NCBI GenBank assembly: GCA_021810565.1
Contig: JAJZIM010000021.1
Coordinates: forward strand, 1-43,191
DNA: 43,191 bases
Source of the DNA: Bacillota bacterium
GTDB lineage: Bacteria; Bacillota; Sulfobacillia; JAJZIM01
Direction of reading: 5' to 3'
Below, one piece after another: positions 23,971 through 40,759 of this stretch (positions within the stretch are counted from its first letter, which is position 1; every line of letters begins with the position of its first letter). Made by a program: the position numbers and the translations under genes. The notes beneath the pieces were generated by a model, which saw nothing but the letters and a program-made list of their open reading frames with translations, made no database searches and was not told the DNA's origin.

Positions 23971-24384
23971 TCAAAAGGGGTTGCTGACTGCCACCCCGCC
24001 AAAGTTCTGCCCCGCATTCAAGTCTTCCGTCCAAAGTACGTCGGCCCCAGCTTTTTGAGCCGCGGTGACGATCATTGCGTCCCAGAAGGATAAATGGTGT
24101 TGTGCGGCCAGATCGATTGCCGCCAGGACGGACGGGCCGTCCGGGGCCACCGTGTGCCAGGAGGCCAGGTCTGCGACGATGCCGCGAGCCTTCTCCCACG
24201 GCAACGGTATGGGCAGCTTTCGGGTCAAGGTGACGAATAGCTCTTGGAGCACTTGAACACTGACGGCGCCGTTTCCTTTCCGCCACAACCGGGATAGCAG
24301 CTCTTTGGCCGCCAGGTGTTTGTCTGAGGCGGTGACGTCATAGGCGTAGATGACTATGTTGGTGTCGCAGAACTCAACGCTCAT
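23971..24384 (-). CDS. vapC: VapC-type PIN-domain toxin
   Basis: 137 residues. Acidic PIN residues are seen in FCDTNIVIYAYD (D7, D16), VSVQVLQELFVTL (Glu), HHLSFWDAMIVTAA (Asp) and LWTEDL (Asp). It is a predicted Mg-dependent RNase toxin. The ATG at 24384 has GGAGGAT upstream, and the gene overlaps its antitoxin gene by 11 bp. It is a different PIN subfamily from the one at 14641-15054: the two proteins share the fold motifs but little sequence. Confidence 0.9.
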   Translation of the reverse strand: MSVEFCDTNIVIYAYDVTASDKHLAAKELLSRLWRKGNGAVSVQVLQELFVTLTRKLPIPLPWEKARGIVADLASWHTVAPDGPSVLAAIDLAAQHHLSFWDAMIVTAAQKAGADVLWTEDLNAGQNFGGVAVSNPF

Positions 24385-24616
24385 GCAGATCCTCCCGCCG
24401 CCAAGGGGCGTGACCGCGGGTGCCCAACTCCAGTCCCTCCTGCAGCAAGTCGAGCTGTCGCCGACAGGCCGCCCGATAGCGGCCGGCCTCCCCGATCTGT
24501 TCCTGCAGGAGGAGGGTCAGGAACCCGGACAGAGAGAGGCCTTTATCGACCGCTAAATGGCGGGCCAGGCGCAAAAGGCTGGAGGGTAGGGAGATGGTGA
24601 CATTCTGCCGTTCCAT
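24374..24616 (-). CDS. vapB: VapB-type ribbon-helix-helix antitoxin
   Basis: 80 residues, from the ATG at 24616-24614 with GAGGTGG upstream. It opens with QNVTISLPSSLLRLARHLA, a beta strand followed by a helix, as in CopG/MetJ-type ribbon-helix-helix antitoxins, then GLSLSGFLTLLLQEQI. The C-terminal part is charged and probably wraps the toxin. It likely represses its own promoter by binding the palindrome at 24630-24654. An upstream in-frame ATG at 24757 would run through the promoter and was not used. Confidence 0.85.
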   Translation of the reverse strand: MERQNVTISLPSSLLRLARHLAVDKGLSLSGFLTLLLQEQIGEAGRYRAACRRQLDLLQEGLELGTRGHAPWRREDLHER

Positions 24617-24629
24617 AGCAACCACCTCA

Positions 24630-24654
24630 GTGAGACAGTGTTTCACGGTCTCAC
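24630..24654. promoter_or_regulatory. Operator palindrome of the vapBC operon
   Basis: GTGAGACAGTG at 24630-24640 and CACGGTCTCAC at 24644-24654 form an inverted repeat with 11-base arms, one mismatch, and a three-base centre. It lies directly between the -10 box and the vapB start codon and touches the -10 box, the expected place for autorepression by a ribbon-helix-helix antitoxin. Confidence 0.7.
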
Positions 24655-24682
24655 TATACCATCCGCGGACTAGAGAAGTCAA
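24653..24682 (-). promoter_or_regulatory. Promoter of the vapBC operon
   Basis: On the minus strand TTGACT at 24682-24677 (five of six consensus bases) is followed after 18 bp by TATAGT at 24658-24653 (five of six). The predicted transcript start falls inside the palindromic operator, about 30 bases before vapB. Confidence 0.75.
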
Positions 24683-24684
24683 CG

Positions 24685-25494
24685 ACCCGATGGAAGGGGC
24701 ATCCGAACACGCGCACAGCCCCTCCTGGTCCTTGCGCGCGACCGTCTCGAGCCGCAACTGCCGTAGGTGTCGTGCGCCCCCTTGATCTGTTCCCGGTTGC
24801 CGCCGGTTAGCACGTTGGGGATTATCTCCTGGGCGTCGCCTCCGACGTCCGGGGTCTGCGGCAGATGGTTGCGGAACAGATGGCGGATCAGATCCGGCAG
24901 GGGCTTTCCGCCACCGGCGGAAGTATCCGTTCCTTGGGCACGTTTTGCACCGGGGCGGCCCCCCGGACCGGCGAACCGCCCCGCCCTCCGCACCTCACCG
25001 TCGGCCGCCGCAAAGGGATGCTTGCCGCTAGCCGTCCTCCCCCAGCTCCTCCGGCGCGCGACCCCGGGGCGATGGGCGAACGGCTTGGGCCGCCAGGTAT
25101 GTCCCGGCTACGGTGAGGACCCCGCCCGCCAGGTCGGCGGCGGACCTGTGCTCACCGCGAAAGAGGGTTGGCAACCGCTCGCGACTTTATTGAAAAGCGG
25201 TACCAATATATTTGTGGCATTTATCGGCAGCTTGTGCTTCCTTCGTGCCGAGCGGGCGACGAGCACACCTTTATCTTAGACTTATCCTCCAGTAATATCA
25301 AGTAATGTCTAATTTTTTGCGTGCAGTTTCTACCCCCTCCCAACACTAGGTGCAGGCGGCGGCGGGCAAGGCGTGAGTTGACCCAAGAGCTGCTCGGCCG
25401 GCGCGTGGGGACCACCCCCCGACCGTGGCGCAGCCGGCCCCATGGGGCGGTTTCCCCGGACAGGCCGGGCTGCAGGTGCATGCCTCCCGCGGGC
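24685..25494. other. Gene-poor spacer between vapBC and the Ehr operon
   Basis: No gene could be supported on either strand; the open frames are short, lack ribosome binding sites and show no family motifs. Composition is mixed, with an AT-rich patch at about 25170-25330. Within it TTAGAC at 25276-25281 pairs with GTCTAA at 25307-25312, followed by six T residues at 25313-25318. This resembles a weak intrinsic terminator on the plus strand, but there is no plus-strand gene upstream for it to serve. No clear terminator was found for the minus-strand operon that ends at 25495. Confidence 0.4.
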
Positions 25495-26892
25495 TCAGCC
25501 GGCCAGGCGCGCCCCCTGGCGCAAGAGTTCCAGCAGGGAGGTGGGCAGGTGCAGGCTCAGAGCCAAGAGCGCCGCCGCGGCGAGAAGGGCGCCGGCGTAG
25601 GGCCAGGGGCCGGCCCTGCGGCGGCGAGGTGCCCCGGGACCGAAGACCAGGCGCGTCAGGCGATGTATCAGGCCCACGAACACCAGGAGCAGCACGGCCA
25701 ATAGCGCCGCCGCCAGCGCGGGCGAGGCGGCGAAGGCGGCCGCCAGGATGCCCAGTTCCCCCAGGAAGTTGCCGAAGGGAGGGCTGCCCGCAGCGGCGAA
25801 GCCGGCCAAGAGCAGCACCGCGGCCGCCACGGGGGAGCGGCCCAGGGCGCCCGCGAGGGCGGACAGATCCCGGGAGCCGCCCTCCTCCGTGATCAGGCCG
25901 GCGGACAAAAAGAGACTGCCCTTGGCCAGGGAGTGATAAAGCATCTGCGCCAGGGCGGCCCCGGCACCCAATAGCCCGCCCAAGCCCAGGCCGAAGACGA
26001 TGACGCCCATGTTCTCCAAGGTGGAGTAGGCCAAAAGGCGCTTCAGGTCCCGGCTGACCAAGAGCATCAGCGCCCCGGCCCCGGCCGAGGCCAGCCCCGC
26101 GGCCAGGAGCAGGTCGCCGCTGAAGGCGCCCAGCACGGGTCGCGCCAGCAGCAGATAGCGCAAAAGGGCATACACCGCCAGGTTGAGCTCCGCCCCGGAC
26201 AGCAGGGCGGAGACCGGCGCGGGAGCCTCGCTGTGGGCGTCGGGCAGCCAGGGATGCAGTGGGAAGAGGCCGATCTTGGCCCCGAAGCCGACCAAGGCCA
26301 GCAGGAAGGCGGCGGCCAACAGGTCGGGCCGCATGGTGGGAGCCTGGCGCAAAAGCGCCGACCAGTCGGGATCCGCGACGGGAGCGGCCCCCAGCAAAAA
26401 ACCCAGGGCGAGCAGGGAGACCAGGCTGCCGGCACCGGTGAGCAGCACGAACTTCCAGGCGGCCTCCACCGAGGAGCGGGTGCCGGCGTGGTCCACCAGC
26501 AGCACGCCGGAGACGGTGGTCAGCTCCAAGGCCACCCACAGGAAGATCAGGTTTCCCGCCACGGCCACGGCCGCCATGGCGGTCAGAAAAGCCGGGAAAA
26601 GGGCGTAGAACGCCCGGTCCCGAGGCTGGGGATCGCTTCGCCAAACTGCGGTGGCGGCGGCAGCGCCCAGGATCCCCACCGGGAGCAGGAACAGGGCCGA
26701 CAGGGCGTCCAGCTGGAAGAAGCCCGCTGCCTGCGTTCCCAGGGTGGCCACCCGCAGGGCTGCGGCGATGGTCGTCCCCAGCAGCACCCAGCTAGCGGCG
26801 AGGCAGATCCAGCGTCCCCAGCGGGGACCGCCGGCCCCGGCAAGGAAGACGCCGACCAGCGGCGGGCCCAGGAGAGCGGCGATCCAGATCAT
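25495..26892 (-). CDS. hyfF: Hydrogenase-4 subunit F-like antiporter subunit (HyfF/NuoN-like)
   Basis: 465 residues, from the ATG at 26892 with GAAAGGAG upstream; last gene of the operon. It is a multi-spanning membrane protein of the MrpD/NuoL-M-N family thought to carry protons or sodium. Key polar membrane residues are kept: Glu in WVALELTTVSG (near 120), Lys in GFGAKIGLFPLHPWLP (near 195), His in WLPDAHSEAPAPVSALLSG (near 210), and Lys in YHSLAKGSLFL (near 310). The strict PDAHSEAP motif shows that this copy is the conserved one; the next gene upstream is a diverged paralogue. About 14 transmembrane segments are likely. Confidence 0.85.
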   Translation of the reverse strand: MIWIAALLGPPLVGVFLAGAGGPRWGRWICLAASWVLLGTTIAAALRVATLGTQAAGFFQLDALSALFLLPVGILGAAAATAVWRSDPQPRDRAFYALFPAFLTAMAAVAVAGNLIFLWVALELTTVSGVLLVDHAGTRSSVEAAWKFVLLTGAGSLVSLLALGFLLGAAPVADPDWSALLRQAPTMRPDLLAAAFLLALVGFGAKIGLFPLHPWLPDAHSEAPAPVSALLSGAELNLAVYALLRYLLLARPVLGAFSGDLLLAAGLASAGAGALMLLVSRDLKRLLAYSTLENMGVIVFGLGLGGLLGAGAALAQMLYHSLAKGSLFLSAGLITEEGGSRDLSALAGALGRSPVAAAVLLLAGFAAAGSPPFGNFLGELGILAAAFAASPALAAALLAVLLLVFVGLIHRLTRLVFGPGAPRRRRAGPWPYAGALLAAAALLALSLHLPTSLLELLRQGARLAG

Positions 26893-26923
26893 GTACCGTT
26901 CGGCTCCTTTCGGCGCACCGGCC

Positions 26924-28270
26924 CTAGGTGAGCAGGGCGGCACCTTTTCGGATCAAGTGGTCCAGGGGGAAGGGCAGGTGCAGGCTCACCCCCAACAGCG
27001 CCACCGCGGCGGCGGCCGCCAACAGCTCCCGGCGCCGCCAGGGTCCCCAGGATCCCGACCGGGAAGCCGGGCCGAAGATCCCGGTCAGTCGGCGCAGGAA
27101 GGCGGCCAAGAGGCAGCACCAGGCGACGAGGAAGACCCCGGCCGCGGCGGGACTCGCCCTGAACAGGCCGCCGGCCACCCCCAGGTCGCCGAAGAAGCCC
27201 AGGAACGGGGGAAAGCCCAAGACGGCCAGGCCACCACCCAACAGCAGCAGAGCGCCGCGGCGCCCCGACCCAGGCGGCGGATCGGACGGCGCGGCGTCGG
27301 GGGCAGACATCGCGTCGGCGGCGAGGAAGAGCATGGGCTTGGCCAGGGCGAAACCCAGCACCAGCAGCAGTCCGCCGGCGGTGCCCCACCCGGTCCCGGA
27401 GCCGATTCCGGCCAGGGCGACGCCCATGCTCTCCATGGTGGCGTAGGCCAACAGTCCGCGCAGGTCCCGGGCACCGGACAGGAACAGTGCCCCGGCCAGG
27501 GCCGTGGCCAACCCCGTGAGCAAAAGAGCATGGGTCACCAACGGGCCCAGGCTGGGCCGCAGGAGCGAGGCGTAGCGGATCAAGGCATACAGCACCAGGT
27601 CCAACTCGGCGGCGGAGAGGAGCACGGCGCCAAGCGGGGCCTGGCGGTAGGCGGCGGGTAGCCAGGGGTGCAGCGGGAACAGGCCGAGCTTGGCCCCGAA
27701 GCCCACCAGGGCCAGGAGGAAGGCCGCCGCGGTCGGAGCGGGAGCCAGCGGGATCCGGCCCAAGACCGACCAATCGGGGCTGATCCCGCTTGCACCGGAC
27801 AGGAGGATGCCCAGGGAGAGGAGACTCACCAACCCGCCCGCGCCGATGAGCAGCACCGACTTCCAGGCCGCCTCCAAAGAGGCCGGGGTGCGGCACCGAT
27901 CCACCAACAGGGCGAAACTCAGGGCGGCCGTCTCCAGGGCGGCCCACAGGAGGACCAGGTCGTCGCTGGCGGCGGCCAGCACCAAACAGGAGAGGAGCAG
28001 GGCCGCCAGACTGCGCTCACGGCGCCCCAGATCGGCCAGGGCGGCGGCCAGCGTACCCGCCACCCCCACCGGCAGCAGGAACAGCACGGAGAGCGCGTCC
28101 AACCGCAGGGGGCCGAGGGCCGGGGGCACACCGTGCACGGCCAGGATCAGGACCCCGGCCAGGGTGCCCCCACCAGACAGAAGGAAGCCCCAACGCCCCC
28201 CTCGGCCGGGCTGCAAGGACCAGGCCAGGCCGAGGGGAGCCGGAACCAGCAAGCACAGCCACCAGAACAT
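26924..28270 (-). CDS. Second, diverged HyfF/NuoN-like antiporter subunit
   Basis: 448 residues, ATG at 28270 with AGGGGG upstream. It is clearly a paralogue of the following gene: GFGAKLGLFPLHPWLP, LLAYATMESMG and the C-terminal pattern SLHLPFPLDHL correspond segment by segment. Membrane Glu (WAALETAALS) and both Lys positions (GFGAKLG, FALAKPMLFL) are kept. The motif PDAHSEAP has become PAAYRQAP, so the conserved His and its acidic neighbour are lost. This copy may have altered ion coupling or a structural role. NuoN would be the alternative name, but the order next to HyfB-, HyfE- and HyfC-like genes favours the hydrogenase-4 family. Confidence 0.8.
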   Translation of the reverse strand: MFWWLCLLVPAPLGLAWSLQPGRGGRWGFLLSGGGTLAGVLILAVHGVPPALGPLRLDALSVLFLLPVGVAGTLAAALADLGRRERSLAALLLSCLVLAAASDDLVLLWAALETAALSFALLVDRCRTPASLEAAWKSVLLIGAGGLVSLLSLGILLSGASGISPDWSVLGRIPLAPAPTAAAFLLALVGFGAKLGLFPLHPWLPAAYRQAPLGAVLLSAAELDLVLYALIRYASLLRPSLGPLVTHALLLTGLATALAGALFLSGARDLRGLLAYATMESMGVALAGIGSGTGWGTAGGLLLVLGFALAKPMLFLAADAMSAPDAAPSDPPPGSGRRGALLLLGGGLAVLGFPPFLGFFGDLGVAGGLFRASPAAAGVFLVAWCCLLAAFLRRLTGIFGPASRSGSWGPWRRRELLAAAAAVALLGVSLHLPFPLDHLIRKGAALLT

Positions 28271-28291
28271 GACGATCGCCCCCTCTCCAGC

Positions 28292-30331
28292 TCAGCGGTA
28301 GCCGGCGGCCACCGCCAGGGCCAGCAGCACCGCCAGGAGCAGCCACGCCAGATACAGGCCCAAGGACCCCGTGTGGATCCGCTGCAGGCCGCGGGCGAGG
28401 CGCAAGACGGTCCGCGCCACGGGCCGGTAGAGGAGTTCCTCCTGCAGGGCGCGCACGTCGTAGCGGTGCCGCGCGGGGGTCCCCGCCGCCTCAGGAGGCG
28501 CCAGCTCCGAGGAGACCCCCAGCATGCCGCGCACCAGGGTGCGCACCGGACCGGCATAGCCGAAGGCGGTGTACTGGAAGAGCGCCGCCGGCGGCAGATA
28601 GCCGCCGTTCCACGCCGGCACCTCCCGGGAGCGGTACCGGCCCAGCCGGGTCAGCCGCCAGGCGAGCAGCATGCCCACTACCAGGGCCAGCCCCAGCAGG
28701 AAAGGGGCGGTGCTGGAGAAGGTGGGGGTGGGGGCCAGGACCAATCCCGGCAAGGGCAGCCAGGAGAACAGCCCGCCGCCCAAGGACCACAAAAGCTGGA
28801 ATTTATGCGGCTCGGCGAAGACGGGCGGGGCGATCCCGGCGGCCAAGGTGCCGAAGGGCACCCCGACCACGGGGGCGAAGCGGACCACCAGGGCGGTGGG
28901 GAACGCACCGGCCGCCAGGCAGGCCATGGCCAGGAGGACCAGTCCCGCAGCCATCCAACCGGAGGGCTCGCGGGCCCGCTCGGCCTGGCGGCTGCGCGGC
29001 AGGCCCAGGAAGGCCACGCCGAAAAGCTTTACGAACAGCGTCACCGCCAGGCCGGCGGTGAGCGCCAGCAAGGCGGCGGCCAGAACCAGGAGCAGGCGCA
29101 GGTCCGCGCTGGGCAGGGCGAAGGCCTGCATGAAGGACTCCAGGGTCAGCCACTCGCCGGGGAAACCGTTCAAGGGCGGCAGCCCGGCGATGGCCAGGGC
29201 GCCCAGGAAGAAGGCCGGAGCCGTCAGGGGCAGGCGCCGGGCCAGCCCGCCCAACAGATCCACCACCTGCACCCCGGTGGCCCGATCGACGCTGCCGGCG
29301 CCCAAGAACAGCAGCCCCTTGAAGAGGCCGTGGTTGAACAGGTGGATGAAGCCCGCCAGGGCGGCGAGGGCGGCCAGGGACGGCAGGTGCGCCTCGGCGA
29401 AGAGGAGGGCGGCGCCCCAGGCTGCCAGGACGATGCCCATGTTCTCCAGGGTGGAGTAGGCCAGGATCTGTTTGAGTTCCCGGGACAGCAGGGCATACAG
29501 CACCCCCAGGAGGGCGGTGACGACGCCCAGGGCCAGGATGAGTCCGCCCCACCAGGCGGGGCCGGGCCCCAACAGCAGCACCACGCTGCGCCACAGGCCG
29601 TAGAGGCCGGCCGCCACCAGCACCCCCGAGAGCAGGGCGGAGAAGTTGGCGGGGCCGGCGGGGTGGGCCCGCGGCAGCCAGATGCCCAGGGGGAACACCC
29701 CGATCTTGACCCCGAAGCCCAGCAGGAAAAGCACGAAGGCCAGATCCCGCCAGGCCGGGGCCAGGCTGCCGGACGCCGCCGCCAAGGCGGCGAAGGAGAC
29801 GGCATGGGCATGGAAGGCCAGGAGCAGGAAGGCGAGCAGCAAGAGCCCCGAGCCCACCTCGGTCATGGCCGTCATCAGGTAGGCGGCCGCCGGGGCGTCG
29901 GGATGCTCCGGCTCCAAGGTCAGGAGCAGGTAGGACAAAAGGCCCATGAGCCCCCAGGCGAACAGGAAGGAGATCAGGTCCCGGGCCAGGAAGACGGCCC
30001 CCAGGTCCAGGAACAAGAGCTGCAACGCAGCCGCGAAGGCGCGCGAGCGCCGAGGGCCGTAGGGGTTAAGGTACCCCAGGCTGTACAGGCTCACGGCCAC
30101 GCCCACCAGGGAGGTCAAAAGCAGGAACAGCCGGGACAGGGGATCGAGGCCGAAGGTGAAGTCCAGGCCCGGCAGGGGCGAGGGGGTGCGAAAGGTGGGC
30201 GACCCGGGTAGGGTCAGGGCGGCCACCGCCGCCGCGGCGAGGCCCGCCGCGCCGCTCAAGAGGCCGGCCCGCCAAAGGCCGCAGGCCGCCAAGACGGCTC
30301 CCAGGACCAGCAGGAGCACCGTCGGCGTCAT
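28292..30331 (-). CDS. hyfB: Hydrogenase-4 subunit B-like antiporter subunit (HyfB/HycC-like)
   Basis: 679 residues, close to HyfB/HycC (about 670). The start is the ATG at 30331, which overlaps the previous gene by 4 bp and has GGGGGTGA upstream. It is the large NuoL/M-like membrane subunit. Conserved polar positions are Lys in GFGVKIGVFPLGIWLPRAHP (near 210), His in RAHPAGPANFSALLSG, LKQILAYSTLENMG (near 285), and Lys in HLFNHGLFKGLLFLGAG (near 340). The hydrophilic loop near 520-545 and the C-terminal extra helix (AGYR terminus) agree with the family. It probably forms the distal ion-translocating module of the complex. Confidence 0.9.
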   Translation of the reverse strand: MTPTVLLLVLGAVLAACGLWRAGLLSGAAGLAAAAVAALTLPGSPTFRTPSPLPGLDFTFGLDPLSRLFLLLTSLVGVAVSLYSLGYLNPYGPRRSRAFAAALQLLFLDLGAVFLARDLISFLFAWGLMGLLSYLLLTLEPEHPDAPAAAYLMTAMTEVGSGLLLLAFLLLAFHAHAVSFAALAAASGSLAPAWRDLAFVLFLLGFGVKIGVFPLGIWLPRAHPAGPANFSALLSGVLVAAGLYGLWRSVVLLLGPGPAWWGGLILALGVVTALLGVLYALLSRELKQILAYSTLENMGIVLAAWGAALLFAEAHLPSLAALAALAGFIHLFNHGLFKGLLFLGAGSVDRATGVQVVDLLGGLARRLPLTAPAFFLGALAIAGLPPLNGFPGEWLTLESFMQAFALPSADLRLLLVLAAALLALTAGLAVTLFVKLFGVAFLGLPRSRQAERAREPSGWMAAGLVLLAMACLAAGAFPTALVVRFAPVVGVPFGTLAAGIAPPVFAEPHKFQLLWSLGGGLFSWLPLPGLVLAPTPTFSSTAPFLLGLALVVGMLLAWRLTRLGRYRSREVPAWNGGYLPPAALFQYTAFGYAGPVRTLVRGMLGVSSELAPPEAAGTPARHRYDVRALQEELLYRPVARTVLRLARGLQRIHTGSLGLYLAWLLLAVLLALAVAAGYR

Positions 30332-31113
30332 CGGGCCGTCACCCCCGGGAGGCGCTTTGGCCCTCGGCCCGTCGCCAGCAGCAAGGCCTCCAGCAGCGCG
30401 AGGGGGTGGGGCGGACACCCGGGGACATAGACGTCCACCGGCAGCACCTGATCCAAGGCGCCGTGGGACAGGGGGGACGGCGGGAAAGGCCCGCCGGAGG
30501 CGGCGCAGGCGCCGGCGGCCACCACCAGGCGGGGCGCGGGCAGGCTGAGGTAGGCCTGGCGCAGCGGCTCCAGCATCCCGGCGGTGACCGGGCCGGTTAC
30601 CAGCAACAAATCAGCGTGTTTGGGGGTGGGGGTGAAGGAGATACCCAGGCGCGAGCAGTCGTAGTAGGGATTGGCCAGGGCCTGGATCTCCGCCTCGCAG
30701 GCGCCGCAGGAGCCGGCGTCCACCGTGCGCACGGTTAGGGAACGGGCCAGGATCCGGTGGGGTCGGACGGACTCGGTGGGCCGGGCGGGGGTGCCGACGG
30801 TCTCCCGCAACGCGCCGCGCCGGCGCACGGCTCCGAGCGGGGTGGCGGCGAAGGATATCCGCTCTTCGGGACACACCTCCCGGCACCGACCGCAGCGCAG
30901 GCAGCGGGCGTGGTCCAGGTGGCCCCGGGGGCCGGTCCAATACACGGCCGAGACCGGGCAGACCTCCTCGCAGCGGCGGCAGCTCCCGCCGCAACTCGCC
31001 CCGGGCAAGACGCGGACGAAGCCGCGAAAGGCTCCGGTGGGCGGCAGCGGTCCCCGGGGGTAGCGGGTGGTCACGGTGCCGGTGCGCAGCACCTCGGTCA
31101 TCCAAGCCAGCAT
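30328..31113 (-). CDS. Ferredoxin-NuoB fusion subunit (HyfA/HycF + HyfI/HycG-like)
   Basis: 261 residues, ATG at 31113 with GAGGAGGG about 8 bases upstream. The N-terminal part (about 35-85) is a two-cluster ferredoxin: CRRCEEVCP and CLRCGRCREVCP each supply a [4Fe-4S] site. The C-terminal part (about 125-255) is NuoB-like, with the ligands of the terminal [4Fe-4S] cluster all present: GSCGACEAEI, GACAASGG and PGCPPHP. In E. coli hydrogenase 3 and 4 these are separate proteins; here they are joined. Its role would be to pass electrons to or from the large subunit at the membrane interface. Confidence 0.88.
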   Translation of the reverse strand: MLAWMTEVLRTGTVTTRYPRGPLPPTGAFRGFVRVLPGASCGGSCRRCEEVCPVSAVYWTGPRGHLDHARCLRCGRCREVCPEERISFAATPLGAVRRRGALRETVGTPARPTESVRPHRILARSLTVRTVDAGSCGACEAEIQALANPYYDCSRLGISFTPTPKHADLLLVTGPVTAGMLEPLRQAYLSLPAPRLVVAAGACAASGGPFPPSPLSHGALDQVLPVDVYVPGCPPHPLALLEALLLATGRGPKRLPGVTAR

Positions 31114-31132
31114 CGCTGGTCCCTCCTCGCGT

Positions 31133-32611
31133 TCAAAGGCTCACCCCGGCATAGGCCAGGCCGAAGCTGGCCGCGATCACCGGGAAGTCGGTCAGGATGT
31201 TGCCGGGGACGGCGGCGGGCAGGGCCAGGGCGTTGGGCATCGAGGCCGCGCCGACGCGGCAGGTGCCCACCCGGTCCTCCCGGGGAGCCAGCAGGTAGGC
31301 CACCTGGCCCCGCGACCCCTCCGTCAAGCCCAGGGCCAGGGGCAGTGCCGGCTCGGTGAACGGCTGCCCAGACCGAAACGGTCCTTTCAAGCGCGGCAGC
31401 GCCGCGATGATCAGGTCCGCCGCCACCGGGATCTCCTCCAGGCGTACCTGGAAGCGGGCCTGGGCGTCCCCCTGCTCCTGGCGGACCACGGGGCAGCCCA
31501 GTTCGGCGTACAGGGCGAAGGGCTGGTCCCGGCGGGTGTCGCAATCGAGCCCCGAGGCCCGGGCCACCGGCCCCCGGGCGCCCAACGCTCGGGCGCTTTC
31601 GATAGTTAGTCGTCCGGTGCCCTCCAGCCGATCCCGGTGGCTGTGGGTGGCGAGGCTCTGGCGTCCCAGGCGGGGCACCTCCCGGCGCACTCGGTCCAGG
31701 AAGGCGGTGAGCACCCGCCTACCCTCCTCCGGTAGGGGACGGGACAGCCCGCCCGGGCGGATCATGCCGCGCAGGAAGCGATGGGCCGTGAGGGCCTGGG
31801 CGGTGCGGCGGCTATCCTCCTCCAGGCGACGGAAACCGGCCTCCCCAACGGCCAAGCCGGTGGCTTGATGGAGGCGGGCCAGATCCCCCAGGTGGTTGGC
31901 GATGCGCTCCAGCTCCAGGAGCACCACCCGGGCCGCCAGGGCTCCGGTGGATGGGGTGATCCCCCAAGCCGCCTCCGCCGCCTGGGAGAAGGCCAGGGCA
32001 TGGGCCACGCTGGAGGTGCCGGAGGCCAGTTCCGCCAGGACGGCGCCCGTGTCGGGATCGACTCCCGCCAACCGCGCCTCCAGACCCCGGGTCTTCAGGT
32101 TCAGTTGGAACCACAGGTGGTGGATGTCCTCGCCCGTCACCTCGAACAGGAGGAACCCCGACTCACCCACCCAGCTGGACACCGGTCCCAGGGGCACCCG
32201 GAACACCCCCGGCCCCTCCACCGCGCTTTGGGGTGCCAGCGGCTCCAGGGGGGGCGGCAGCGGCAGGTCGCAGCCCTCCAGGGGCATGGTGTCGGGCCAG
32301 CCGCAGGGCAGCCGCCAGCAACCCGGCGTGCCGCCGCGAAACTCCCGACCGTATTGCTCCCGGAAGGCCACCTCCCAGGGCCAGGCGGCGGGGAACTCGG
32401 GACTGAGGGCCGGCAGGCCCTCGTCGGGCCAGGGGGTGGTGAAAAGCTCAGCACCGCCCTTGCGGGCCAGCGCCAAGGCCAGGGTTGGTCCGGGCAGGCC
32501 GGACAGCAAAGCGAGGTGGGCCCCAGCCGCCAACCGACGAACGGCCGCGGCGCAAAAGGCCGCAGGGTCCAGGGCGCGGGGGGCGGCGACGGATCTCGGT
32601 TGGGTGGACAA
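31133..32611 (-). CDS. Hydrogenase-like large subunit lacking nickel ligands (Ehr type)
   Basis: 492 residues from a TTG start at 32611 with GGAGG about 8 bases upstream. The N-terminal 130 residues are NuoC-like, and the rest is NuoD/HycE-like (DIHHLWFQLNLKTRGLE, LELERIANHLGDLA, ALGARGPVARASGLDCDTR). In true group 4 [NiFe] hydrogenases the first nickel motif reads RxCGxC just before SxxHAxAxCQA; here the aligned segment is LASGTSSVAHALAFSQA, with both Cys replaced by Ser. The C-terminal DPCxxC is replaced by FGLAYAG. Without these four ligands the protein cannot bind the NiFe site, so the complex is unlikely to make or use hydrogen. Confidence 0.88.
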   Translation of the reverse strand: MSTQPRSVAAPRALDPAAFCAAAVRRLAAGAHLALLSGLPGPTLALALARKGGAELFTTPWPDEGLPALSPEFPAAWPWEVAFREQYGREFRGGTPGCWRLPCGWPDTMPLEGCDLPLPPPLEPLAPQSAVEGPGVFRVPLGPVSSWVGESGFLLFEVTGEDIHHLWFQLNLKTRGLEARLAGVDPDTGAVLAELASGTSSVAHALAFSQAAEAAWGITPSTGALAARVVLLELERIANHLGDLARLHQATGLAVGEAGFRRLEEDSRRTAQALTAHRFLRGMIRPGGLSRPLPEEGRRVLTAFLDRVRREVPRLGRQSLATHSHRDRLEGTGRLTIESARALGARGPVARASGLDCDTRRDQPFALYAELGCPVVRQEQGDAQARFQVRLEEIPVAADLIIAALPRLKGPFRSGQPFTEPALPLALGLTEGSRGQVAYLLAPREDRVGTCRVGAASMPNALALPAAVPGNILTDFPVIAASFGLAYAGVSL

Positions 32612-32624
32612 GTTGATGCCTCCT

Positions 32625-33281
32625 TCAGCCGCGCAGCCGGTTCAGCCGGGACACGTCGGTGCTGCCCAAGCGCTCGTACATGCGCCGGATCAGCACGCCC
32701 AGCACCAGGGCGGCCAGCCACAGGTCCAGGAACAGCCCCAGCTCCGGCAGGAAGGGGAAATCATAGATCAGGGCGGCCACCGCGGCGATGACGCCGTTCT
32801 CGCCCAGGAAGAAGGACAGCACTTGGGGCAGCGCCTCCCGCCGGGCGCTCATGGCCGCCAGCGCGAAGAGCAGGGTGGTCACCCCCGCCACCAGCAACAG
32901 GTGCAGTCCGCCGGCCGCGGCGGGGGGCAGCAGGATGAAGGAGCAGGCCAGCAGCACGGCCGCGGTCAGCATGGCCGCGGGGGCGGAGAGGTAGGAGCCG
33001 AAGGCGGCGCGGTCCAACAGCTCGCGGTGCAGCCGGCGGCGCAAGAGCCGCGGCACCAGCCAGGCCTTGCCCAGCGCGGTGAAGGCGGCCAGGGCCAGGA
33101 GGGGCCAGCGTCCGGTGCCCACGCCCAACAGGGCCAGGATGCCGGCCAGCGCCAGGGATTGGCCGGCGTAGGCGGCGAAGATGCCGCTGGTGGTCCGGCC
33201 GACCAGTCCCGCCAGAGCGAAGGCCAACAGCAGCACGGCCGACAGGTCCAACCAGGGGAGAAAGGCTTGCAGCAAGGTCAT
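32625..33281 (-). CDS. hyfE: Hydrogenase-4 membrane subunit E-like (HyfE/NuoK-like)
   Basis: 218 residues, the usual HyfE length. It is a small membrane protein with about six to seven hydrophobic segments; the C-terminal half resembles NuoK, with a membrane acidic residue in FFLGENGVIAAVAALIYDFP. It belongs to the ion-translocating arm. The annotated ATG at 33281 lies only one base after AGAGGAG; a TTG two codons later (33275) would have the better spacing of seven bases and may be the true start. Seven bases separate it from hyfC upstream. Confidence 0.85.
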   Translation of the reverse strand: MTLLQAFLPWLDLSAVLLLAFALAGLVGRTTSGIFAAYAGQSLALAGILALLGVGTGRWPLLALAAFTALGKAWLVPRLLRRRLHRELLDRAAFGSYLSAPAAMLTAAVLLACSFILLPPAAAGGLHLLLVAGVTTLLFALAAMSARREALPQVLSFFLGENGVIAAVAALIYDFPFLPELGLFLDLWLAALVLGVLIRRMYERLGSTDVSRLNRLRG

Positions 33282-33288
33282 GCTCCTC

Positions 33289-34236
33289 TCAGTAGGTGCC
33301 GAAGACCCGCGCCAGGGCGGCCAGAAGCGCCACGCCGAAGGCGGCCCCCAAAAACTCCGGCACCCGGAACAGGCGGATCTTGGCGCCGGACACCTCCACC
33401 AGCACCAGGGCCAGGGCCGCCAGCAGGAGCTTGGCCAGCACCGCTCCCGCCGCCGCCAGCAGGGAAAACGGACCCGCGGCGCCGGTGAGCCCCCAAGGGG
33501 TCGCCAGGACGTTCATCAGGATGACCAGCAGCACGGTGAGCTTCATGGCCCCGCCCCAGCGCAAAAGGGCCAGGCGCGGCCCGGTGTACTCCAGGGCCCG
33601 GGCCTCGTCGATCATGGACAGCTCGTGCAGGCTGTCGGGGTTGTCCACGGGGATGTGGCCGGTCTCGGCCAGGATCACCATGAAGAGGGCCAGGAGGATC
33701 AACAGGTGCGAGGGATAGAAGAGGTAGGCGGGCCGCACCAGCACTTTTTGCACCACGTAGGGGACGGTGGCGTGGGCCGTCAGGGCCACGGTGAAGATGA
33801 CCGTGATCAGCACCGGCTCCGCCAAAAGCGACACCAATCGTGAGCGGGAGGATCCCACCCCGCCGTAGGGGCTGGAGGGGTCCAGGGCCGCCAGCACCAG
33901 GAAGAAGCCGCCCAGGGTGAGCACGAAGCCGCCGGCCAGCATGTCGCCGGTGAAGGCGAAGTAGAGGGGAAAGTCGGTGAGGACCGGGATCAAAAGCGTC
34001 ACCACCAGGGGCGCGGTGAAATACACCAAGGGGGCGATGCGCCACAGCCAGGAGGTGCCGATGGGGACCAGGTCCTCCTTGCGCAAGAGCTTTGCCAAGT
34101 CGAAGTAGGGCTGCAGCAGGGGCGGACCGCGCCGGCCCTGAAAGCGGGCCTTGGCGGTGGCGATGCAGCCCTTGACCAAAGGGGACAGGCCCAGGACGAA
34201 GGCCAGCTGGAACAGCTGCGGCACGATGCGGTCCAA
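33289..34236 (-). CDS. hyfC: Hydrogenase-4 subunit C-like membrane anchor (HyfC/HycD/NuoH-like)
   Basis: First gene of the Ehr operon, 315 residues from a TTG at 34236 that has GGAGGAGG seven bases upstream. A longer frame from 34302 would start inside the riboswitch terminator and was rejected. NuoH-family features are GRRGPPLLQPYFDLAKLLRKE near residue 35, ETGHIPVDNPDSLHELSMIDE near 200 (charged loop contacting the soluble subunits), and YTGPRLALLRWGGAMKLTVL. About eight membrane segments are visible. It anchors the peripheral arm to the membrane. Expression is controlled by the fluoride riboswitch just upstream. Confidence 0.92.
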   Translation of the reverse strand: MDRIVPQLFQLAFVLGLSPLVKGCIATAKARFQGRRGPPLLQPYFDLAKLLRKEDLVPIGTSWLWRIAPLVYFTAPLVVTLLIPVLTDFPLYFAFTGDMLAGGFVLTLGGFFLVLAALDPSSPYGGVGSSRSRLVSLLAEPVLITVIFTVALTAHATVPYVVQKVLVRPAYLFYPSHLLILLALFMVILAETGHIPVDNPDSLHELSMIDEARALEYTGPRLALLRWGGAMKLTVLLVILMNVLATPWGLTGAAGPFSLLAAAGAVLAKLLLAALALVLVEVSGAKIRLFRVPEFLGAAFGVALLAALARVFGTY

Positions 34237-34269
34237 ACCACGACCTCCTCCAGCGTCCACCGGGGGCAC

Positions 34270-34299
34270 ACAAAAACTCCTGTCCAAAAAGACAGGAGT
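34270..34299 (-). terminator. Intrinsic terminator in the Ehr operon leader (riboswitch expression platform)
   Basis: A perfect nine-base-pair stem, ACTCCTGTC (34299-34291) with GACAGGAGT (34284-34276), has a six-base loop and runs directly into TTTTTGTG. It sits about 40 bases before the hyfC start, so it can only act as a regulated stop for the operon's own transcript. Confidence 0.88.
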
Positions 34300-34380
34300 C
34301 ATCAGCCGCTAGGCGGTTTGGGAGCTTCGCGCTCCGCGGGCGGTTTCCCCATCGCCCGAGGATCCGGACGGGATCCTGGA
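34270..34380 (-). promoter_or_regulatory. Fluoride riboswitch (crcB motif) with overlapping intrinsic terminator
   Basis: The leader of the Ehr operon carries the fluoride aptamer consensus. GGGCGATG at 34357-34350 with its pairing partner GCCC, AAACCGCC at 34319-34312, and GGCTGATGACTCCT at 34307-34294 come in the family order and spacing. The aptamer's 3' end (ACTCCTGTC, 34299-34291) is also the 5' arm of a terminator hairpin whose other arm is GACAGGAGT (34284-34276), followed by five T. Fluoride binding should stabilise the aptamer, prevent the terminator and switch the operon on. A hairpin made of two GGATCC boxes (34376-34371 and 34365-34360) precedes the aptamer. The original description of this motif lists genes annotated as formate hydrogenlyase among its targets. 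Confidence 0.9.
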
Positions 34381-34384
34381 CCGC

Positions 34385-34414
34385 AGTGTACCATGGGCGT
34401 CGGCGGGCAGTCAA
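34385..34414 (-). promoter_or_regulatory. Promoter of the fluoride-riboswitch/Ehr operon
   Basis: TTGACT at 34414-34409 and TACACT at 34390-34385 are separated by 18 bp, a good sigma-A-type pair. Transcription is predicted to start near 34379-34377, at the first GGATCC box of the riboswitch leader, which fits the start of the structured RNA. Confidence 0.75.
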
Positions 34415-34461: not shown

Positions 34462-34493
34462 TTGCCAGGGCTCCCTGGCGCATGTGCTAAGAT
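34462..34493 (+). promoter_or_regulatory. Candidate promoter of the ECF sigma operon
   Basis: TAAGAT at 34488-34493 is preceded by TGC, giving an extended -10 box. TTGCCA at 34462-34467 would be the -35 but lies 20 bp away, longer than usual. A palindrome CCAGGGCTCCCTGG (34465-34478) overlaps the spacer and might be an operator. The sigma gene starts 89 bases downstream. An ECF-type self-promoter was not recognised. Confidence 0.35.
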
Positions 34494-34581
34494 TAGGGCG
34501 AAAACCCCGGTCAGGACCGGTCGACGGAGTGAACCGCGGGCCCTTTTCCCGAGTCTATTCTTTGGGACGGGAGGGACGGCC

Positions 34582-35109
34582 TTGGATTTGGGCGAGGAGC
34601 GGGAGGCCCTGCGGCGGGCCTGCGACGGGGACCAGGAAGCCCTGGCGATCCTCTTCGAAGCCCACCGCGCCACCGCCTACCGCGCCGCCTACGCCGTCCT
34701 GCGCGACCGCCAGCTGGCCGAGGACGCGGTGCAGGAGGCCTTCGTACGGGCGTTCCTGCACATCCGCCGCTGCCGGGGCGAGCGGGGCTTCGCTCCCTGG
34801 TTCCACCGCATCGTGGGCAACGTCTCCCGCACCATGCGCGCACGAAGACGGGAATTGCCCACCGCGGTGCCGCCGGAGCCGCCCGCCGCCGGCGGGCCGG
34901 ATTGGAGCGAGAGCCTGGCCGTCTGGGAGGCCCTGGCGCGATTGCCGCCGGGGCAGCAGGAGGTGCTGCTGCTGCGCTACCGCTACGACCTGTCGGAGGC
35001 GCGGATGGCGCAGGTGCTGGGCTGTCCGCCGGGTACGGTGAAGTCCCGGCTGCATGCGGCGCGGCAGGCTTTGGAGGCCGTCTGGAACGGGGAGGGGGGG
35101 CGGTCATGA
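34582..35109 (+). CDS. ECF-family RNA polymerase sigma factor
   Basis: 175 residues from a TTG at 34582 with GGGAGGG about six bases upstream; this start gives the standard ECF length, whereas the longer frame would run back through the riboswitch region. Region 2 is LFEAHRATAYRAAYAVLRD through AEDAVQEAFVRAFLHI, followed by APWFHRIVGNVSR. Region 4 is LPPGQQEVLLLRYRYDLSEARM, then GCPPGTVKSRLHAARQAL, which contacts the -35 box. The stop overlaps the next gene (ATGA at 35106-35109), whose product is probably the cognate anti-sigma factor. Confidence 0.92.
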   Translation: MDLGEEREALRRACDGDQEALAILFEAHRATAYRAAYAVLRDRQLAEDAVQEAFVRAFLHIRRCRGERGFAPWFHRIVGNVSRTMRARRRELPTAVPPEPPAAGGPDWSESLAVWEALARLPPGQQEVLLLRYRYDLSEARMAQVLGCPPGTVKSRLHAARQALEAVWNGEGGRS

Positions 35110-35915
35110 GGCTGACGGAGGAGCTTTTGCGGCGGGCCCTGTCGCCCGGGGCGAGCGAGGACGGCCCGGCTTGGGACCAGGTGCGCCGGGCGCTGGACCG
35201 GCGCCGCCGCTCTCGGCGGCGGCTTTGGGGCGGTCTCGCCGCGGCCCTGGTGCTGGCGGCGGTCACGGGCGCCCTGGCCCCCGGTCGTCTGGCACCCCGG
35301 CATTCCGCGGCGGTGCGCATCGCCGCCCCGGCGCCACGCCAAAGGCTTGCCACGCGGGCGACGGCGGGGCAGGCGGCACCCGGCAAGGCGGTCTTCGCAG
35401 TGGTCAGCCGGGGGGCTGCGGTGCAGGCGGCCTTGCCCTACGCGCCGCCCTTGAGCCTGGAGCAGGTCCAGGAGGCGGCCAAGGTGCCCCTGGTGGTGCC
35501 GCGGGGGTTCTCCGCCAACTTCCTGCGGGCATATCTGACCAGTGGTCCCTACCCCGGGGGCGATCCCCGGCGCCGGGTGCAAAGGGCGGTGCTGGTGTAT
35601 GGCTTTGCCGGCGGTGAGGTGCGGGTCAGCCAGACCGAGGTGATCAGCGACCGCACCGGGACTTGGCGCGTGGCGCGGGAAGACCGGATCGGGTTCACCC
35701 CCGCGGCGGGGGAGGTGCGTTCGACCAGCGTGGCGGGGATCCCGGTGCTTTCCTGGCGGGGCCTGCGCCGGGGCCGGCCCTGGTGCCGGCTCGTTTTTCA
35801 CCGCGCGGGCACCCTTTGGGAGCTGGGCGCGCCGCCCCAACTCAAACCGCAACTGTTGGCCGTGATCCAAAGGCTCGCGGACCAGGGGATAGGATCAGGA
35901 GGTGGCGCAGGATGA
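35106..35915 (+). CDS. Probable membrane anti-sigma factor
   Basis: 269 residues. A short cytoplasmic N-terminus (about 37 residues, ending in a block of arginines) is followed by one membrane helix, LWGGLAAALVLAAVTGALAPG (about residues 40-60), and an extracytoplasmic domain of about 200 residues. The outer domain includes VQEAAKVPLVVPRGFSANFL and a strand-rich C-terminus ending before LLAVIQRLADQG, similar in feel to DUF4367-like sensor domains. The gene overlaps the sigma factor gene by 4 bp and the next SIMPL gene by 4 bp. No HxxxCxxC zinc motif is visible, so it is not a classical ZAS anti-sigma factor. The role is inferred from position and topology. Confidence 0.65.
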   Translation: MRLTEELLRRALSPGASEDGPAWDQVRRALDRRRRSRRRLWGGLAAALVLAAVTGALAPGRLAPRHSAAVRIAAPAPRQRLATRATAGQAAPGKAVFAVVSRGAAVQAALPYAPPLSLEQVQEAAKVPLVVPRGFSANFLRAYLTSGPYPGGDPRRRVQRAVLVYGFAGGEVRVSQTEVISDRTGTWRVAREDRIGFTPAAGEVRSTSVAGIPVLSWRGLRRGRPWCRLVFHRAGTLWELGAPPQLKPQLLAVIQRLADQGIGSGGGAG

Positions 35916-36580
35916 GTCTCAAGGGATGGATCGGGGTGGCCCTGGCCGGGGTGGTGGCTCTGGTGGCCTTGGGGTTGGCCCTGCGGGGCGCTCCGCCGCC
36001 CTCGCGCACCATCACGGTGACCGGCCAGGGAGTGGTGAAGATCGGGACCGGCGCTGCAGACCGGCAGGTGAACCTGTTCCTGCAGGTCAGCGGTTCCAGC
36101 CAGGCCCGGGTGGTGGCGAGGCTGCAGGCGCAACGCAAGTTGGCCCAGACGGTATTCACCAAGGACCAGGTGCCCGCGCAGGACATCCGGATCCACAACT
36201 ATGCGGTCAACCGGTACGGACCGTACGCCAAGACCGCCAAGCCGTACGCGGGCAACCAGAACATCCAGGTGAAGAACCTGACCCGCTCGGCGGCCGACAA
36301 GCTGGTGGGTGACCTGCTGGCCGCGGGCATCACCGGCAACGTCAACGCGGGCACCGTCTACCCGCCGCCCATCGACGCCGCCGAGCGCGCCAAGGCCGAG
36401 GAGGCCGCCCTGGCGGACGCGCGCACCCAGGCCCAGGCCCTGGCGGCCAAGCTGGGCTACACCCTGGGACCGGTGCTCAAGATCACCGCTCCGCCCAACA
36501 ACCAGAACCCGGTGATGTACAACACGCCGCAGCAGGGGGAGATCACCGCCACCGAAGAGGTGACCTTCGAGCTGCGTTGA
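35912..36580 (+). CDS. SIMPL-domain (DUF541) membrane-anchored protein, copy 1
   Basis: 222 residues, from an ATG overlapping the preceding stop. An N-terminal membrane helix (GVALAGVVALVALGLALRG, about 8-26) anchors an outer SIMPL domain. Its start, RTITVTGQGVVKIGTGAADRQ, is the usual opening strand, and the C-terminus EITATEEVTFELR is the usual closing strand. The segment AEEAALADARTQAQALAAKLG matches the conserved SIMPL helix. The SIMPL fold forms oligomeric rings in characterised members; its molecular task is unknown. It is the third gene of the ECF sigma operon and therefore a likely member of that regulon. Confidence 0.85.
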   Translation: MSLKGWIGVALAGVVALVALGLALRGAPPPSRTITVTGQGVVKIGTGAADRQVNLFLQVSGSSQARVVARLQAQRKLAQTVFTKDQVPAQDIRIHNYAVNRYGPYAKTAKPYAGNQNIQVKNLTRSAADKLVGDLLAAGITGNVNAGTVYPPPIDAAERAKAEEAALADARTQAQALAAKLGYTLGPVLKITAPPNNQNPVMYNTPQQGEITATEEVTFELR

Positions 36581-36640
36581 GCGCAAAGGCCAAGCGCTGA
36601 CTACCGCCCTCGTCAGGGCGGCACGGAGGTGGAGCGGAAA

Positions 36641-37393
36641 ATGTCGCGCATGGGATGGGCCGTGTTCGCGGCGGTGCTGATCATGGCCCTGGCCGCGCTC
36701 CTGGCCGCAGTGCGCATCGTCCAACCGGCGCGCACCATCACGGTGTTGGGGGAGGGCGTGGCAAAAAGTACCCCGAGTCAGGGCCACCTGCTGAGCATCT
36801 CCCTCACGGCGCGGGATACCAACGCGGCGGCGGCGTGGAGTAAGCTGGGGGGGGAGCGCCGCCGTGTGCTGGCGCTGTTGGCGGCCCAGGGGGTGAGCGC
36901 GTCGGCGGTACGCTGGCAAAACCTCGACGTGAGCAAGCCCAGCCCCCTGGTGGTGCAAAAGCTGCAGTTGGCGCGTCCCCCGGGGGCGAAGTTCGTGCCG
37001 CCGGCCTACTTGGACGAATACACGGCGAGCGAGACCCTGCAGTTGACCCATCTGTCGGGAGCCGAAGCCCAGAAGCTGTCCCAGGCAATTCTGAACGAGG
37101 GGGTCGCGGCGGGGGTGAACACCTTCCAGGACCAGGGGCCGGAGGTGTCCGCGCAGGTGCGGATCCGGGCCTTGGAGGCGGCGCTGTTCGACGCGCGAAC
37201 CCAAGCGGCCGCCCAGGCGGGGAAATTGGGGCTCGGACTGGGGCCGGTCCTGCGCGTGGCACCCCCGCCTGCGGTGCCGATCAAGCCATTTCCGAACGCC
37301 ATGGGCAACGGCCCCGTCGTGCGTCCGATGTTCCGGGTGTTGGCGCCGGGCAAGGTCGCCGCCACCGTGGAGGTTACCTTCGCCCTGCGCTGA
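36641..37393 (+). CDS. SIMPL-domain (DUF541) membrane-anchored protein, copy 2
   Basis: 250 residues from the ATG at 36641 with GGAGGTGG upstream. A GTG at 36629 is in frame but has no site in front of it. The layout repeats that of copy 1: a membrane helix (AVFAAVLIMALAALLAAVRIV), the opening strand ARTITVLGEGVAKSTPSQGH, the conserved helix ALEAALFDARTQAAAQAGKLG, and a closing strand GKVAATVEVTFALR. Internal sequence differs strongly from copy 1, so this is an old duplication. It is 60 bp downstream of copy 1 and converges on the lipoprotein gene with a 10-bp gap. Confidence 0.85.
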   Translation: MSRMGWAVFAAVLIMALAALLAAVRIVQPARTITVLGEGVAKSTPSQGHLLSISLTARDTNAAAAWSKLGGERRRVLALLAAQGVSASAVRWQNLDVSKPSPLVVQKLQLARPPGAKFVPPAYLDEYTASETLQLTHLSGAEAQKLSQAILNEGVAAGVNTFQDQGPEVSAQVRIRALEAALFDARTQAAAQAGKLGLGLGPVLRVAPPPAVPIKPFPNAMGNGPVVRPMFRVLAPGKVAATVEVTFALR

Positions 37394-37403
37394 CGCCGGC
37401 GGC

Positions 37404-38282
37404 CTAGCCGCCCTGCGGCGTCCCCGTCGGGCTCGTGCCGGGGAGGGCGCCATACAAGGACTTGGTGCCGCTGGGCAGGCTGATGCGCCAAGCGCCCGAG
37501 GCGGACCGGCGCAGGTGGAGGACGACCGACTTGTAGGTCAGGGGAAGCTTGCCGGAGTTCAACGCCATGGTCATGGCGGGCAAGAACACCAGCGCGAATT
37601 CGGCGCCGACTTGACTGCCGGAGGAGGAGCTGTGGCCGTTGCACACCTGGTGCATGCGGTTCAGGGCCGCCTGCGCCGCCGGGGTGGATAACTCCCGCTT
37701 CAGCTCCTGTTGATAGGCTCGCGCAGTCCGCCCGCTTTGGGGCGCGCCGAAGGCCTGGGCCAGGGGGTTGGCCGCGCCGTTGCCGGAGAGCTGCTTGGTC
37801 GAGGGCAGGCCCAGGGATACCTGCACCGTGGCTTGTGCGCCCAAGACCTGGGCCGGAGCGAGCCGCCAGCGGGCGTGGCCTGCCAGGGCCGCCCATAGGT
37901 GTTGGAACAGCACCGTGTCCACCTGGGTCAGGGCGACCGCGCAGGGGCCGTGGGCCGTCCGCACGGCTCCGGCGGCCTGCCCCGCCCAGGGAGCCTGGGG
38001 GGAAACCACCTTGCGATCCGCGCTGGTCAGCAATTCGTAGGCGCGATGGAAATGGAAAGGCGTCCGAAAGATGTCGGTCAGATACGCCTGGACCACGGCG
38101 TTTGGCGAGGCGACGGGGGATGCCGCCGGCTGAGCGGCGGGGGCCCCGCAGCCGGCCAGCAGGGCGACCGCCAGGACGCCCCCCAGCCCGCGCCGGAAAA
38201 TGCCGGCCCTGCCTCCTTCGCGCGGCAGGCGAAGCAGGCGCCCGAGCGCAGCGCCCAACCGCGAGACTGGCCCCCTCCCCAT
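37404..38282 (-). CDS. Predicted lipoprotein of unknown function
   Basis: 292 residues from the ATG at 38282, with GGAGG eight bases upstream. The longer in-frame reading from 38432 has no such site. A basic N-terminal region is followed by a hydrophobic run and lipobox, GVLAVALLAGC (Cys near residue 45), so it should be attached to the outer face of the membrane. The mature part begins with a low-complexity Ala/Pro linker, then SPNAVVQAYLTDIFRTPFHF, which resembles the first helix of NTF2-like lipoproteins (DUF4878 type). The remaining sequence is not recognised. It is transcribed toward the SIMPL gene and away from sigI. Confidence 0.75.
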   Translation of the reverse strand: MGRGPVSRLGAALGRLLRLPREGGRAGIFRRGLGGVLAVALLAGCGAPAAQPAASPVASPNAVVQAYLTDIFRTPFHFHRAYELLTSADRKVVSPQAPWAGQAAGAVRTAHGPCAVALTQVDTVLFQHLWAALAGHARWRLAPAQVLGAQATVQVSLGLPSTKQLSGNGAANPLAQAFGAPQSGRTARAYQQELKRELSTPAAQAALNRMHQVCNGHSSSSGSQVGAEFALVFLPAMTMALNSGKLPLTYKSVVLHLRRSASGAWRISLPSGTKSLYGALPGTSPTGTPQGG

Positions 38283-38575
38283 GTATGTGGCCTCCGGAGG
38301 CGTCCTGGACACAGCCGCCACCCCCTCCAAGAATTGATGCCAGTTTAGACTGGCAAGTGTGACTATTCGTTGCCGCCTGGGAATCTCCTGCAACGACTTT
38401 CCGGCCGCCCCGCGGGCTGGGCGGTGAACCAAACGTTCCCGTGGGGGAGTCCACCTTATCAGGGGATGGCGCGCGGGGAGGGGCAGCCTTCCCCGGGACG
38501 TGCCCGCATGGCGGTGGAGCCCGAGGGGATCTTGCCGGCGGCGGTCGGGGCGGGATGGGGCGGGGAGATGGTGGC
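38283..38575. promoter_or_regulatory. Divergent control region between the lipoprotein gene and sigI
   Basis: About 290 bp without a gene. It contains a perfect palindrome, TGCCAGT at 38338-38344 and ACTGGCA at 38349-38355 with a four-base centre, a likely regulator binding site. CACCCCC at about 38319 resembles the -35 core of SigI-dependent promoters, but no matching CGAA -10 is found at the right distance. Standard sigma-A boxes are not convincing on either strand. Confidence 0.4.
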
Positions 38576-40716: not shown

Positions 40717-40759
40717 GGGGCGTCTAACGGTTTAGAGGAGCATGAAGAGGAGGGGCAGC

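Follow-up and report, generated by a model that had tools for sequence, protein, structure and literature searches.

What does a fluoride riboswitch control when it stands in front of an apparent hydrogenase operon? The window analyzed here, a stretch of 43,191 nucleotides from a member of the class Sulfobacillia (Bacillota), holds an operon of seven co-oriented genes with hyfC first and the last hyfF-like gene ending at 25495. A first-pass annotation of this DNA described a seven-gene hydrogenase-like membrane complex at this place, and the seven genes stand, except that hyfH and hyfI form one fused gene. It also noted that formate hydrogenlyase had been listed as a target of fluoride switches, and "genes encoding formate hydrogen lyase" are indeed named among the targets of the crcB-motif RNA (Weinberg 2010, PMC2864571). 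Beyond that mention, we found no link between fluoride switches and hydrogenase- or complex-I-like genes in the open-licence literature. The regulatory elements and genes of the operon, in the order of transcription, are the following.

34385..34414 (-): sigma-70-type promoter TTGACT-18-TACACT with extended TG, 9/12 matches
34286..34365 (-): fluoride riboswitch aptamer RF01734, 36.7 bits, gathering score 34
34275..34300 (-): intrinsic terminator GACTCCTGTC-TTTTT-GGACAGGAGT TTTTG, its 5' arm containing the aptamer 3' end
33289..34236 (-): hyfC, NuoH/HycD-like membrane subunit, PF00146 E 2e-31, TTG start
32625..33281 (-): hyfE-like small membrane subunit, NF008556 E 2e-20, under the model cut-off
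31133..32611 (-): hyfG, large subunit without Ni ligands by alignment, predicted fold matching HycE with Z 44
30328..31113 (-): fused hyfH (two 4Fe-4S motifs) and hyfI (NuoB-like), Fer4 and PF01058
28292..30331 (-): hyfB, antiporter-like subunit, PRK06521 hydrogenase 4 subunit B E 3e-152, under the cut-off
26924..28270 (-): hyfF-like antiporter subunit 1, divergent, seen outside the window in the order-mate genome G041
25495..26892 (-): hyfF-like antiporter subunit 2, PF00361 E 1e-49, Lys/Glu pathway residues conserved

Several other genes of the window were recognized by eye. An ECF-type sigma factor-like gene (34484-35109, +) is divergent from the operon promoter, and a PIN-domain toxin-like gene with a small antitoxin-like gene upstream (23971-24757, -) lies just past the operon. 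Three paralogous SIMPL/DUF541-like genes are found within 6 kb (35663-41530, +).

The RF01734 match covers the full model (1-64, 34365-34286 on the minus strand, E 1.1e-6), and the fluoride aptamer proposed from the letters alone is thus borne out by a covariance-model score above threshold. This score is modest, and the position of the aptamer is kept across phyla, which rules out a chance aptamer. The proposed promoter, about 20 bases upstream of the aptamer start, likewise holds, with one such site found against 0.1 expected from shuffles. The terminator consists of an 11-bp stem followed by a T run (fold z-score, -2.9), and the conserved GACTCCT of the aptamer 3' end falls inside its 5' arm GACTCCTGTC, as had been claimed, so that terminator and aptamer exclude each other through the shared arm. 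Both the conserved aptamer and a terminator overlapping its 3' end are familiar from the crcB-motif RNA (RF01734). The TTG start of hyfC is preceded by the ribosome-binding site GGAGGAGG. Since aptamer and terminator are mutually exclusive, their anatomy indicates that fluoride should switch the operon on.

The product of this operon is not a conventional hydrogenase. In an alignment of large subunits, HyfG of the window carries SGTSxxxH and LAYA in place of CGxCxxxH and CxxC; the switch-linked large subunits have SGTSxxxH with LSVA or LAYA, or close variants, and every one inspected has other residues at all four Ni-ligand cysteine positions. True NiFe group 4 subunits of the host class (L063 and L099) contain both CGxC and CxxC, and such NiFe paralogues, with their Ni ligands kept, have no switch. 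G041 encodes both types, the Ni-less one behind a switch and the Ni-ligated one without. By Pfam, the large subunit contains the complex-I 49-kDa domain and has no match to the NiFe domain PF00374. In an AlphaFold2 model (mean pLDDT, 88.6), the predicted fold is normal and intact despite the loss of the Ni ligands, its best match being E. coli HycE (Z 44.4, 2.3 A over 469 residues).

Because all four Ni ligands are absent, the complex is, as judged from the alignment, of the energy-converting-hydrogenase-related (Ehr) type rather than a formate hydrogenlyase. "Hydrogenase-like" remains apt for the related subunits, and since the Ni site is gone it should not be read as hydrogen metabolism. The operon encodes the membrane and soluble subunits of group 4-type complexes; it lacks the NADH-oxidizing module NuoEFG, which sets it apart from complex I, and it contains hyfG and hyfI, whereas Mrp antiporters have no NuoB-/NuoD-like subunits. 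E. coli formate hydrogenlyase 1 (PDB 7z0s) provides the closest solved large subunit (profile E 2e-70) and also the closest relative of HyfB; the complex described here differs in having no Ni site, no formate dehydrogenase among the seven genes of its operon, and a fluoride switch. We consider it very improbable that a formate hydrogenlyase or group 4 NiFe hydrogenase of the ordinary kind stands behind the switch by happenstance, a reading that similarity-based annotation, the 2010 target list and HycE as nearest solved relative would favor but that the replaced Ni ligands, the switchless NiFe paralogues, the missing PF00374 match and the missing formate dehydrogenase gene all oppose.

Ehr clusters have been described before in Sulfobacillus, without Ni motifs and with unknown function, and fluoride is not mentioned there (Justice 2014, PMC4378227). 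They share the NuoH-, NuoL-, HyfE- and HyfB-like subunits and the large and small subunits, the large subunit also lacking Ni-binding motifs. What distinguishes the present complexes is that they form one clade tied to the fluoride switch, with another gene order, whereas Ehr relatives outside this clade have no switch.

In the host class, RF01734 is found in 88 of 154 genomes, and a listed switch precedes 52 of the best 104 large-subunit matches (in 45 genomes), lying on the same strand and no more than 7 kb upstream, with a few further pairings where contigs end. The distance from switch to large subunit is nearly always 3.0 to 3.8 kb, and 1.7 to 1.8 kb in the window and G041. For a survey blind to the RNA, 84,980 species were scanned with the large-subunit alignment, which yielded 80 loci from many phyla. 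The automatic structure of our RNA model R1 holds only the long-range GGAG/CTCC pairing and missed several true switches, so the loci missed by R1 were rerun with the Rfam model. With both models, a switch is present upstream in 45 loci and absent in 27, and 8 loci are untestable. Of these 45 switches, three score less than the Rfam threshold requires (L103, 33.7 bits; L129, 28.1 bits; L171, 26.1 bits).

The pairing recurs across phyla, as the first-pass annotation had proposed to check: a switch is found in 45 of the 48 testable loci of one clade and in none of 24 outside it, some of the latter judged with R1 only (Fisher P 4e-16, or 7e-14 with the three sub-threshold matches counted as absent; genomes and families are related, which overstates independence and makes all P values given here optimistic). 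The test is restricted to the 80 unselected loci, as rows L063-L102 were mostly picked for having a switch; among these, the class row L101 was scored positive on a weak match (R1, 16.5 bits). Within the clade, L107, L114 and L116 show no switch even at E<=1. In a tree of 112 large subunits, every switch-positive row falls into a single clade (SH-aLRT 99) spanning Bacillota, Pseudomonadota and other phyla, with two changes of switch state overall. Of the 48 clade aptamers, 26 have a terminator-like hairpin, compared with 8 after shuffling. Relative to the 2010 list, the target proves to be a complex other than formate hydrogenlyase, and its link to the switch tracks a single clade through several phyla. 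Taken from these sequence comparisons, one Ehr clade is very probably dedicated to fluoride stress, with the pairing near-universal inside it.

Gene order separates the same groups. Clade operons begin with hyfC (switch-C-E-F-G-(H)I-B) and those outside begin with hyfB ((I)-B-C-E-F-G); the order in the window is C-E-G-HI-B-F-F. In the flanks examined, CrcB, CLC, DUF190 or MutS-like neighbors accompany 32 of the 53 loci in the clade and none of the 27 beyond it. In some loci, namely, in three Proteobacteria, the switch instead heads a crcB-HIT-DUF190-Ehr operon. The Paraburkholderia and Caballeronia loci continue with a second switch and with a CLC gene. One of these CLCs was read out and has the motif GGNNLL, at a position where fluoride-type CLCs have GNNLI. 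Ownership of the switch by a neighboring exporter, with Ehr as passenger, is judged unlikely, since in most loci the switch directly precedes hyfC, and since neither CrcB nor CLC is found in the host. Regulation of the complex by fluoride, and its dedication to fluoride, are strongly supported.

Other genes recur around these switches. Directly after the Ehr operon in L065 lies a gene for a 605-residue protein (10139-11956, +) with relatives in L067, L068 and L102 and no Pfam or NCBIfam match; the aptamers before it are the highest-scoring of the class, with up to 63.7 bits. Fluoride switches and Ehr operons of several phyla have genes for dynamin-family GTPases behind or next to them (L166:354-2165:+, PF00350; L101, L108, L140, L204, L223, L251, and L254). 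Finally, in L226, L234, and L250, switches precede a MoxR-like ATPase gene and a second gene that is DUF58-like by eye.

The first-pass annotation had noted that neither crcB nor eriC is in the window, and this absence extends further. The host genome (G000) is 99.4% complete, and six-frame HMM searches at E<=0.001 return no match to CrcB (PF02537) or CLC (PF00654) in the whole genome; both are likewise missing from G041, and three further class genomes with a switch-controlled Ehr have neither. G000 contains two fluoride switches, one before the Ehr operon and one (contig C91:51870-51945) before a gene for a 188-residue CxxC/CxxH protein (L002:918-1484:-) that is weakly DUF6062-like (E 0.04). 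At least six further loci (L221, L223, L227, L241, L248, and L253) encode similar proteins behind switches, sometimes adjoining dynamin-like GTPases, and by these positions the proteins represent a candidate fluoride-regulon family that is as yet undescribed.

The subunits themselves retain what ion transport would need. Across 78 to 81 clade sequences, K206, H320, K324 and E379 are kept in HyfF and K209, H334, K338 and E393 in HyfB. HyfB also shows clade-specific changes, H158 being replaced by E in 77 of 78 sequences and His216 and His223 not being conserved, and His177 of HyfC is invariant within the clade and not outside. Read from these residues, the transport parts of the complex are intact. 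The redox parts are more variable. All four cysteines of the HyfI proximal cluster are present in 72 of 82 clade rows, including the window; at least one is lost in the other 10, and all four in two (L101 and L171), so redox driving is not universal. HyfH has eight cysteines in Proteobacteria and in the window, and four or none in most Bacillota members. Electron transfer is therefore likely in most clade members, going by their cysteines, and a need for it in all of them is not certain.

We lean, at somewhat better than even odds, toward a reading in which fluoride relieves termination and thereby induces a Ni-free complex-I-like pump for protons or cations that would restore pH and proton-motive force. 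HF would enter the cell and then dissociate; bound fluoride would stabilize the aptamer, so that its 3' end does not form the 5' arm of the terminator, and the operon would be transcribed only under fluoride. Its product would be a Ni-free complex-I-like membrane complex (Ehr) with two Mrp-type antiporter subunits, or three in the host, belonging to a clade specialized in the fluoride response. By moving protons or cations across the membrane, this complex would undo the acidification and the loss of proton-motive force that HF entry brings, and it may fill the job that switch-controlled Na+/H+ antiporters have in other families of the class. We infer the ON direction, as we do the transported ion and the electron source and acceptor.

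HF entry is known to acidify the cytoplasm and to lower proton-motive force; among the targets of fluoride switches, Na+/H+ antiporters form the second most common class, with pH homeostasis proposed as their role (PMC11139923). These are likewise membrane ion transporters under a fluoride switch; they are single-gene CPA-type exchangers as opposed to the multisubunit Ehr, and in the host class the two never share a genome. Switch-controlled Na+/H+ exchangers (PF00999 in reference members) occur in 11 genomes, switch-controlled Ehr in 48, and both in none (exclusion P 3e-5 by genome, 0.01 by family). The annotation had offered restored ion balance as one of two possible mechanisms, and it emerges as the best supported, since antiporter-type residues are kept and Na+/H+ antiporters occupy the same slot in other families.

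A second, rather improbable reading makes redox chemistry the main role, with the complex serving as an alternative electron route (for example, ferredoxin/quinone) when fluoride blocks enolase, pyrophosphatase or ATPase, and with pumping secondary. The four HyfI cysteines in most clade members, the two HyfH 4Fe-4S motifs in the window and in Proteobacteria and the intact predicted large-subunit fold are consistent with such a role, as is the presence of enolase and pyrophosphatase among the switch targets of the host class. However, most Bacillota members have a HyfH with reduced or absent electron-input clusters, two members have no proximal-cluster ligand at all, and no partner dehydrogenase recurs in the operons.

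The other mechanism raised by the first-pass annotation, in which the complex itself expels fluoride, would make it a third kind of exporter, exchanging F- for H+ via the antiporter-like subunits, redox driven or not. If the internal pH were only raised, more HF would be drawn in, so that a pure proton pump needs an exporter, and the host has neither of the two known ones. Together, these points keep direct export by the complex alive. In acidophiles, the membrane potential is reported to be inside positive and cells to be anion sensitive (PMC12831704); given such a potential, a passive channel such as CrcB would probably be unhelpful. The host and G041 carry switches and no CrcB or CLC, and, by the families found, only the Ehr locus of the host's two switch loci encodes membrane proteins. 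The altered ion pathway of HyfB, the clade-specific His177 of HyfC and the missing proximal cluster of some members would also fit. Yet the H-to-E change adds negative charge, no anion-binding motif was identified, and the genomes of most clade members have CrcB or CLC, often adjoining, which would make an exporter redundant there; in addition, eight other class genomes with a listed switch have neither exporter nor Ehr. As its one item of positive evidence is the joint absence of CrcB and CLC in 5 of the 45 genomes of the class that show the pairing, direct export was not upheld and we regard it as unlikely. That the whole clade should be a multisubunit complex-I-like fluoride pump, a third exporter kind with some members lacking a redox center, appears more doubtful still.

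With the pH-restoring pump as the preferred reading, two puzzles are joined: the Ehr complexes, which have no known function, and the listing of formate hydrogenlyase in the fluoride regulon, unexplained since 2010. The result is a testable assignment across phyla, in which Ni-free relatives of complex I would be devoted to fluoride stress; it also makes available complex-I-like pumps that come with a natural on-switch. Members without the proximal cluster could reveal whether such a machine works without redox driving, and the complex hints at what may serve bacteria that have neither CrcB nor CLC.
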